Positions 43,758-64,000 of a stretch of DNA of 64,000 nucleotides are shown in pieces. Both the position numbers and the translations under genes were made by a program. The stretch spans positions 1 to 64,000 of IMG/VR virus record IMGVR_UViG_3300037628_000362; one strand, 5' to 3'. The DNA comes from a virus. Under the pieces are notes generated by a model that was not told the origin of the DNA, made no database searches, and saw only the letters and a list, made by a program, of their open reading frames with translations. Every line of letters begins with the position of its first letter. Positions within the stretch are counted from its first letter, which is position 1.

Positions 43758-43815
43758 AACGGAGATGGTGGCGGGGACGTTTTGCCGTGGTCCCGGGCTA
43801 ATACGGGGCAGTTAT

Positions 43816-43903
43816 GGCCAAGCATTATGGTTGTGGATCAGTCGTCACAGGCCGAAGAGGCAGATGATGGATGATTGGCGGGTTCGATTCCTGCCCTTGG
43901 TCC
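43816..43903 (+). tRNA. tRNA-like element 1 (noncanonical)
   Basis: Acceptor-like GGCCAAG (43816-43822) pairs with CTTGGTC (43896-43902), and a T-arm with loop TTCGATT has a 6-bp stem GGCGGG/CCTGCC. Total 88 bases. I cannot fold a normal D-arm or anticodon arm in the middle. It shares its last 29 bases exactly with element 2. Perhaps a degenerate tRNA or a tRNA-mimic. Confidence 0.35.
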
Positions 43904-43907
43904 TTAT

Positions 43908-43977
43908 GACCAAGCTCGTGATTGGGTCCACTGTGCCCCGGGCCGTGGATGGCGGGTTCGATTCCTGCCCTTGGTCC
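43908..43977 (+). tRNA. tRNA-like element 2 (noncanonical)
   Basis: Perfect 7-bp acceptor GACCAAG/CTTGGTC, a 3-4 bp D-arm-like stem GTG/CAC and the same 6-bp T-arm as element 1. The anticodon region is too short by three or four bases and cannot form a 5-bp stem with 7-base loop; no anticodon can be assigned. Its 3' 29 bases equal those of element 1, so one arose from the other. Confidence 0.4.
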
Positions 43978-43981
43978 TTGA

Positions 43982-44052
43982 TGTGGGCTAGTGTAATGGT
44001 AACATACGGGCCTCATACGTCCGTGCTATCGGTTCGACTCCGGTGCCCACCA
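43982..44052 (+). tRNA. tRNA-Met-like (anticodon CAT)
   Basis: 71 bases with a good cloverleaf: D-stem GTGT/ACAT, loop with GG, anticodon stem CGGGC/GTCCG with 7-base loop CTCATAC (anticodon CAT), variable TGCT, T-stem ATCGG/CCGGT with loop TTCGACT. The acceptor TGTGGGC/GCCCACC has an unpaired first position (T1, C72), reminiscent of initiator tRNAs but with different bases. CCA is not encoded (A then TTT). Either elongator Met, or Ile if C34 is modified. Confidence 0.7.
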
Positions 44053-44114
44053 TTTATAAGCACAAACACTAATGAGATCCCTGGCGGCCGGCGGCGGGGA
44101 CGTTTTGCCGGTGC

Positions 44115-44172
44115 ATACGCCAATGTTCTAAGGCGGGCGATAGAGACTCCAGTTCGATTCCTGGGGCGTATA
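44115..44172 (+). tRNA. tRNA-like element 4, lacks D-arm
   Basis: Acceptor ATACGCC/GGCGTAT pairs perfectly and a T-arm-like stem CCAG/CTGG has loop TTCGATTC (8 bases). Only 27 bases lie between, too few for D- and anticodon arms. Truncated tRNA or a tRNA-like signal. Confidence 0.3.
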
Positions 44173-44336
44173 CTAGAACCCGTGAGAAGGCCCTTAACCG
44201 GATTCTAGTCACTGAAGGTGAGGCTTTGAAATCCAGTAGACTGCTGGGTTCATTTACGCTGGGTAATGACCGTCGCGGGAAGCACCCGCCGCTAAATTAC
44301 CTGGGGCCGTTATTTTACCTCAACCAGGAGGATTTA

Positions 44337-50377: not shown

Positions 50378-50627
50378 AACCGGCGTAATGGTAATGAAAG
50401 ACGGGAAGGCGTGGGGGATCGTCTACGAAGATGGCCAAAGTGCCTGCTCTGGATGGATTGATGTTGAATCAGCTCCGATTCACGATCCGAAATACTGCAA
50501 GAAGACAACCGACGTTACCTTTGAGCACAGTCACCACACGACGGAGTTGGAAACGGCAAAACTTGTTGAAGTAAAAAGGATAACGACCGTGGAAATTCTC
50601 GAACAGAACGATGAGGGAAGTAGCTAA
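50367..50627 (+). CDS. Small hypothetical protein
   Basis: 86 residues from the second ATG, nine bases after GGAGG; the ATG at 50361 is too close to it. Strand-rich with His and acidic patches. Stop overlaps the recombinase start (TAATG). No family recognised. Confidence 0.45.
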   Translation: MKIETGVMVMKDGKAWGIVYEDGQSACSGWIDVESAPIHDPKYCKKTTDVTFEHSHHTTELETAKLVEVKRITTVEILEQNDEGSS

Positions 50628-51229
50628 TGCCTAGCTTCACCCAATACATGACGCTCAATGAGATCCACACGGTCCTAGAAGACCTCCGCCTGCGGTCTAT
50701 CTGGAGCGTATCGTCGGCCGTCAACCGGATCATCGTGCGGCTCTCGCTCGGCGCTGGGCTCCGCTGCATGGAAATCGTTGGCCTCAATGTAGGTGATCTC
50801 GTTCTCGGTGGAAGTTGCCCGGTCATCAACGTACGTGGCGAGACAGCGAAGGGCGGCAAGCCGAGAAAGGTGCCCTTGTTCTGGGACCGGCAGACACTTG
50901 CCGACCTGGCTAACTGGCAACGGCACCGCACTGAGGTCATGGGTGCCACGCGTGGAGATCCATTCGTTTGCGGAGTCTGCCAGACAAATCGAGGTGGCCG
51001 GCTGATACGGTCGATGGCGGCAAAGCGATGGAAGACAGCGATTAAGTGTCTGGGGACCGATCGGGTGTCTCAACTGTCGATCCACTGCGGCCGGCACAGC
51101 TTTGCCTCGCACGCCGTTCGAGCTGGTCGTACACCGGCAGAGTTACGCGACGCCCTGGGCCACGCGAATATCACCACCACTGAAACCTACCTGCACTCGA
51201 TCCCGACTGAGTGTGGGGATTTATTCTGA
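50627..51229 (+). CDS. Minimal tyrosine recombinase (integrase-like)
   Basis: 200 residues, only the catalytic domain. Full set of residues: R46 in GAGLRCMEI, a Lys region (AKGGKPRKVPL), H153-x-x-R156 (HCGRHSF), H179 (LGHANITTTE) and Y188 in ETYLH. The usual N-terminal core-binding domain that clamps DNA is missing, so it resembles XerH- or phage-type minimal recombinases or a trimmed integrase. It could integrate the phage, resolve dimers or manage repeat sites. No excisionase is recognised. A CCA-encoding tRNA lies 0.9 kb downstream. Confidence 0.8.
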   Translation: MPSFTQYMTLNEIHTVLEDLRLRSIWSVSSAVNRIIVRLSLGAGLRCMEIVGLNVGDLVLGGSCPVINVRGETAKGGKPRKVPLFWDRQTLADLANWQRHRTEVMGATRGDPFVCGVCQTNRGGRLIRSMAAKRWKTAIKCLGTDRVSQLSIHCGRHSFASHAVRAGRTPAELRDALGHANITTTETYLHSIPTECGDLF

Positions 51230-52045: not shown

Positions 52046-52130
52046 TTAGTCGGAATTCTCTTAGTCGGGCTTAGTGATTCGGGTATTCGGATTAGTCGGA
52101 TATGAGTGGTTCTGAATTCGGGTATTCGGA
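52046..52130. repeat. Direct repeats upstream of leftward gene
   Basis: ATTCGGGTATTCGGA occurs at 52077-52091 and 52116-52130 (39-base period) and TTAGTCGG at 52046, 52061 and 52092. This fills the otherwise non-coding 52004-52163 between the 52003 gene start and a tRNA. Perhaps regulator or recombinase binding sites. Confidence 0.5.
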
Positions 52131-52163: not shown

Positions 52164-52238
52164 TGGCTTTCGATACTGGATTTGAACCAGTAACATCAAG
52201 ATTGATATTCTTGCGCTCTACCACTGAGCTAATCGAAA
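52164..52238 (-). tRNA. tRNA with anticodon AUC (Asp by codon)
   Basis: Perfect cloverleaf: acceptor TTTCGAT/ATCGAAA, D-stem GCTC/GAGC with loop AGTGGTA, anticodon stem CAAGA/TCTTG with loop ATATCAA, T-stem ACTGG/CCAGT with loop TTCAAAT, discriminator G73 and encoded CCA. The anticodon reads ATC (A34-T35-C36), which pairs with GAU Asp; a normal Asp tRNA has GUC. G73 and G10 agree with Asp identity, A34 does not. Lies between repeats and a leftward gene. Confidence 0.85.
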
Positions 52239-63849: not shown

Positions 63850-63864
63850 GTGACAATGTGTCAT
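63850..63864. promoter_or_regulatory. Palindromic operator-like site 10
   Basis: GTGACAATGTGTCAT, one mismatch, between the 63823 gene start and the stop of the gene at the right edge (both minus strand). Confidence 0.65.
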
Positions 63865-64000
63865 CTTGACCTGCTTTCCGGCCGCCAGTTCCAGACCGGA
63901 GGCTTGCCTGAGATTTCAGGCAGAAATATGCCGTCCGCCTTATCTGGCCGAACCCACTTGGCCATGAAGTCTAGTTTACCATTTCGTTCGACCCGGTAGA
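63861..64000 (-). CDS. Partial gene running off the right edge
   Basis: About 45 C-terminal residues are visible, ending at a TGA (63861-63863). The reading contains RVERNGKLDFMAKWVRPDKA and PEISGKPPVWNW, polar and protein-like. The 5' end lies beyond the window; function not identifiable. Confidence 0.5.
   Translation of the reverse strand, partial: YRVERNGKLDFMAKWVRPDKADGIFLPEISGKPPVWNWRPESRSR

Follow-up and report, generated by a model that had tools for sequence, protein, structure and literature searches.

An asparagine-type phage tRNA with the anticodon AUC and a putative role in reading GAU codons

What would a phage gain from a tRNA that presents adenosine at the wobble position of an aspartate anticodon, and is such a tRNA an aspartate tRNA at all? 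The question arises from bases 1–64,000 (hereafter the window) of a 76,696-base IMG/VR virus contig belonging to a bacterial virus. ARAGORN calls two tRNA genes in the window, a tRNA-Met(CAT) at 43982–44052 (+), which scores 48.5 bits against Rfam, and a tRNA-Asp(ATC) on the minus strand, the RNA sequence of which is UUUCGAUUAGCUCAGUGGUAGAGCGCAAGAAUAUCAAUCUUGAUGUUACUGGUUCAAAUCCAGUAUCGAAAGCCA. The latter gene and the features which bear on its interpretation are listed in Table 1.

Table 1. Coordinates of the tRNA(ATC) gene, its parts and the associated features of the contig
Feature	Position	Strand	Evidence
Entire tRNA gene (75 nt, with the encoded CCA at 52164-52166); G73 at 52167	52164..52238	-	ARAGORN; Rfam RF00005, 66.7 bits
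Anticodon AUC (A34 U35 C36) in loop AUAUCAA (A32, A37, A38)	52204..52206	-	ARAGORN anticodon position 33; sequence
5' acceptor strand UUUCGAU; U1 pairs with A72 (52168), asparagine/glutamine-type first pair	52232..52238	-	Sequence; class statistics
3' acceptor strand AUCGAAA, pairing 7/7 with the 5' strand	52168..52174	-	Sequence
Short direct repeats directly 3' of the tRNA: TTAGTCGGA/G (three copies), ATTCGGGTATTCGGA (two copies)	52046..52130		Repeat search
Catalytic domain of a tyrosine recombinase/integrase (200 aa), at a distance of 0.9 kb from the tRNA	50627..51229	+	PF00589, 7.9e-19; PHROG 216 integrase, 1e-24; translation
RNA-ligase-like gene, 3' part in window, motif KLDGS	63861..64000 (contig 63861-64568)	-	PF09414, 4.2e-15; PHROG 548 RNA ligase, 8e-5; translation

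The gene is a member of RF00005, its score standing against a gathering threshold of 29 bits (E 2.5e-12 for the window). All stems are Watson-Crick (acceptor 7/7, D 4/4, anticodon 5/5, T 5/5), the cmscan alignment flags no broken pairs, and the TTCAAAT loop and the G18-G19/G53-C61 features are present. The first-pass annotation had described an intact cloverleaf with G73 and an encoded CCA, as well as an ATC anticodon with A34; ARAGORN and Rfam bear out both descriptions and supply the strand, which had been left unstated. The anticodon loop reads A32 U33 A34 U35 C36 A37 A38. Since a tRNA-specific pattern with TATC has one match in the window and none in 100 shuffles, a chance origin is ruled out. 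In computed folding the cloverleaf is not the structure of lowest energy, a rival hairpin involving A32 and C36 being 1.3 kcal/mol better (-19.5 vs -18.2); approximately 27% of 841 sampled tRNAs fail the same naive folding test. A scan around the gene for promoters and terminators gave no match.

The “Asp” label of this tRNA derives solely from its anticodon. We compared the remainder of the molecule with the tRNAs of the fetched loci, comprising 121 tRNA(GTC) and 54 tRNA(GTT). The combination of U1-A72 and G73, present here, occurs in 49 of the 54 tRNA(GTT) and in none of the 121 tRNA(GTC); 116 of the latter combine G73 with G1-C72, which the window tRNA lacks. Position 38 is C in 98/121 tRNA(GTC) and A in 53/54 tRNA(GTT), and here it is A. 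Thus, among the tRNA-Asp features G73 is present and G1-C72, G34 and C38 are absent, while among the tRNA-Asn features U1-A72 and G73 are present and the GUU anticodon is replaced by AUC. When the anticodon is masked, asparagine-type tRNAs predominate among the closest of those sampled, the top matches being Ile/Met(CAT) and one Asp. Judged by these sequence marks the body is of the asparagine type, and the identity of the tRNA as tRNA-Asp is consequently doubtful; a glutamine-type body would be the second choice, since U1-A72 with G73 also marks part of tRNA-Gln. Of the earlier proposal that the tRNA decodes GAU as aspartate, the decoding of GAU agrees with published data on A34 tRNAs (PMC11066159) and the amino acid is what the asparagine-type body calls into question. 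A search of IMG/VR for the same tRNA body with other anticodons gave no match, and no direct ancestor was found.

In the two-codon boxes of Asp and Asn, A34 is very rare, yet it recurs in unrelated phages in tRNAs with intact stems, as counts of pattern matches in IMG/VR and GTDB reveal. The U33-A34-U35-C36 tRNA pattern was found in 15 stretches among 2.9 million viral contigs of IMG/VR; ARAGORN calls a tRNA(ATC) in five stretches other than ours (L008, L011, L014, L015 and L016), and three further near-identical copies are tRNA-like without an ARAGORN call. By comparison, the same pattern with GTC matches at least 120 stretches, and with ATT it matches 40, of which 21 carry a called tRNA(ATT). 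A similar ATC pattern matches 26 stretches in GTDB genomes, nine of them with a called tRNA(ATC). The window tRNA is one member of a small but recurring group of phage A34 tRNAs. The previous statement that bacteria hardly use A34 outside Arg-ACG holds broadly, with the qualification that phages and bacteria have a limited number of such genes with ATC and ATT. Within the limits set by the wording of our queries, we found no literature on phage tRNAs with either anticodon. Phage tRNA-Asn(ATT) genes recur at IMG/VR loci L184–L221, the ARAGORN-called ones mostly with no GTT tRNA detected alongside in the same stretch. In Chitinophaga skermanii (L035) a G34A copy of tRNA-Asp adjoins several normal GTC genes, and offers a test of A34 decoding in nature.

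The explanation which we favour, at roughly even odds (a probability of about 0.5), is that the gene specifies an intact phage tRNA with an asparagine-type body, the anticodon of which has turned to AUC, and which reads GAU by unmodified A34 and is likely charged by aspartyl-tRNA synthetase (AspRS). Its asparagine-type marks are U1-A72, G73, A37-A38 and a D loop without a 20a base, and AUC would have arisen most simply from GUU or AUU through changes at positions 34 and 36. The step from AUU is easy to imagine, as the AUAUUAA loops of the tRNA(ATT) genes at L212 and L217 differ from AUAUCAA solely at position 36. If expressed, the tRNA would read GAU alone through A34:U3 pairing. In E. coli an engineered A34 tRNA with AUC read GAU (3.5%), and no reading of GAC, GAA or GAG was detected (PMC11066159, Table 1). 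We infer, rather than observe, that the gene is transcribed and its product charged, and also the amino acid it carries and any benefit to the phage, such as nuclease-proof reading of GAU.

Several points count against this favoured explanation, among them the hairpin which competes with the anticodon arm, the occurrence of U1-A72 with G73 in part of tRNA-Gln and the loss of G34. The codon use of the phage genes, a check proposed for the late genes in the first-pass annotation, revealed no enrichment of GAU, which makes up 43.6% of the Asp codons (GAC, 56%), in line with the other NAU codons and with no rise in any region; codon compensation is therefore not suggested. In addition, no relative which conserves the tRNA(ATC) was found: megablast against phages, and searches via the integrase, helicase and terminase, recovered no close relatives of this phage, the helicase giving two matches of only 27–28% identity.

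In bacteria the identity elements of tRNA-Asp are G73, G10, G34, U35, C36 and C38, and its G1-C72 and G2-C71 pairs are strictly conserved; the identity elements of tRNA-Asn are G73, G34, U35 and U36 (PMC9976931). Since the window tRNA keeps U35, C36 and G73 of the AspRS set and has lost G34, C38 and G1-C72, slow aspartylation is the best guess: AspRS would be expected to charge it, at a low rate. U1-A72 is required for the amidation of Asp-tRNA-Asn, and in tRNA-Asp G1-C72 and U20a prevent this reaction (PMC9976931). The window tRNA possesses the U1-A72 signal for GatCAB and neither G1-C72 nor U20a (D loop AGUGGUA, no 20a base). In hosts having a non-discriminating AspRS together with GatCAB, part of the Asp-tRNA may therefore be amidated to Asn-tRNA and asparagine be inserted at GAU. 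The tRNA may also be uncharged, because G34 is a strong determinant for both AspRS and asparaginyl-tRNA synthetase (AsnRS).

The loss of G34 for both enzymes is one of the points which suggest decay, the main rival to the favoured explanation, according to which a phage tRNA-Asn has suffered drift of its anticodon in the absence of selection and no longer takes part in translation. The combination of A32 (found in 9 of 958 sampled tRNAs) with A34 and C36 is unusual, the hairpin competing with the anticodon arm is the better structure in silico, and tRNA-like remnants are found on the same contig (43816–44170). Random decay, however, would not favour a tRNA in which 21/21 stem pairs are intact and the conserved loop bases are kept along with G73 and CCA, and unrelated phages repeatedly carry A34 tRNAs whose stems are intact. 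The intact stems weigh against a long period of decay, and on balance we regard decay as the less probable account, although it is the strongest competitor. An association between A32 and A34 (4/41 vs 5/823; p 0.0005) is given little weight, being post hoc and counting the window tRNA itself.

Somewhat less probable again, although plausible by analogy, is that the tRNA evades nucleases. A34, which here replaces the G34 of NAY tRNAs, would shield it from putative anticodon nucleases of the colicin E5 type that cut NAY tRNAs at G34/Q34-U35, and would thereby sustain the decoding of GAU. There is a precedent in the anticodon-loop mutations of phage tRNAs, which have been proposed to evade host tRNases (PMC10264068). 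Of the four GUN families, the two that were scanned (as ATC and ATT) both include A34 tRNAs, mostly with no G34 copy detected in the stretch, and an RNA-ligase-like gene lies on the same strand as the tRNA. The latter is consistent with evasion because this type of enzyme is able to repair cut tRNAs; the protein is possibly a tRNA repair enzyme, its best PHROG being 38169, of unknown function (3.9e-55). Against evasion, a tRNA restricted to GAU would leave the GAC majority of Asp codons unserved.

Two further proposals are each improbable, to a similar degree. The first is recoding. That the phage exploits the amidation signal and the absence of both antideterminants, with the tRNA charged with Asp, amidated by host GatCAB and a fraction of GAU read as Asn during infection, seems doubtful; the idea is derived from identity rules. 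If true, it would mean that a virus encodes a missense tRNA.

The second is tRNA-dependent lysogeny, considered here because of the tyrosine integrase situated 0.9 kb away and the intervening short repeats. The tRNA would lie in or beside attP and would replace a host tRNA lost upon integration, as has been described in mycobacteriophages, where the phage tRNA must match the isotype of the disrupted host tRNA (PMC10865867). Inspection of the integrase translation by eye located the residues R, K, HxxR, H and Y. The repeats adjoin the tRNA on the side facing the integrase, where the genes change direction and the GC skew switches, and CCGAATACCCGAAT is confined to this cluster (chance 0.01); they could represent integrase (att) arm sites, an origin or regulatory iterons. 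Three observations make this role doubtful. The 25-nt 3' segment of the tRNA (T arm and 3' acceptor), used to seek the host, matched 0 of 84,980 GTDB species genomes, a search through which a 10-bp core would slip; the whole contig contains no second copy of the tRNA segment which might serve as an att site; and a tRNA which reads only GAU cannot replace the essential tRNA-Asp(GUC) or tRNA-Asn(GUU).

That the anticodon reflects a mistake of sequencing or assembly is very unlikely: the gene is known from a single contig with no relative for comparison, but the change from GUU to AUC requires two substitutions, A32 would be a third oddity in an otherwise perfect tRNA, and the related AUAUUAA loops occur at L212 and L217. 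The least probable alternative, raised in the first-pass annotation, is deamination of A34 to inosine, which has a general precedent in tRNA-Arg(ACG) and would permit the reading of GAU and GAC; it finds no support. In E. coli, AUC tRNAs with A34 read GAU and no GAC, no inosine was seen in tRNAs whose bases 35 and 36 are both other than those of ACG, and TadA was blocked, where tested, by changes at 32, 37 or 38 of the loop (all PMC11066159); this loop has A32. I34 would read GAA (Glu) as well, and the Pfam matches of 64 scanned phage ORFs include no TadA-like gene.

Other parts of the contig deserve mention. The non-coding region 43760–44190 (+) contains several tRNA-like remnants surrounding the tRNA-Met(CAT) gene. 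Among these TGGCGGGTTCGATTCCTGCCCTTGGTCCTT is present in two copies and GGCGGGGACGTTTTGCCG occurs twice, and 7-bp acceptor-like pairs (GGCCAAG or GACCAAG with CTTGGTC, and ATACGCC/GGCGTAT) enclose middles of the wrong length. One remnant gives a weak tRNA-Sec score (21 bits, below threshold). Elsewhere there are matches to a GroES-type co-chaperone, a sigma-70 region 4 protein, a ParB-type protein and an N6/N4 DNA methylase.

So seldom are genuine unmodified A34 tRNAs met with that knowledge of their decoding comes mostly from engineered systems (PMC11066159); the phage A34 tRNAs for GAU and AAU constitute natural test cases. The mismatch between an asparagine body and an aspartate codon permits a sharp and inexpensive test between deliberate mistranslation, nuclease-proof decoding and a relic. 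It is also a caution that labels given to phage tRNAs from the anticodon alone can misname the amino acid.

Among known systems, the phages with tRNA-dependent lysogeny (PMC10865867) resemble ours in having a tRNA gene near a tyrosine integrase; their tRNA has to match the disrupted host isotype, whereas here no host site was found and a tRNA restricted to GAU would be unable to complement. The tRNase-evading phage tRNAs (PMC10264068) share with the window tRNA an altered anticodon loop. The anticodon AUC itself is shared with the tRNA-Asp(AUC) of L008, L014, L016, L035 (Chitinophaga) and L042 (Acidobacteria). The L035 and L042 tRNAs, unlike ours, are true tRNA-Asp bodies (G1-C72, C38) with G34A, and several others have A73; none of these tRNA(AUC) other than the window tRNA has U1-A72 with G73. 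Bacterial and phage tRNA-Asn (GUU) have in common with it U1-A72, G73, A37-A38 and the TAGCTCA..GGTAGAGC body, and differ in carrying GUU and C32 rather than AUC and A32. The phage tRNA-Asn(AUU) (21 calls, including L191, L212, L217 and L221) likewise combine A34 in a NAY two-codon box with intact stems. They have U36, and so read AAU, and different acceptor stems, whereas the window tRNA has C36 and would read GAU; two of them, at L212 and L217, share its loop, A32-U-A34-U-Y-A-A.
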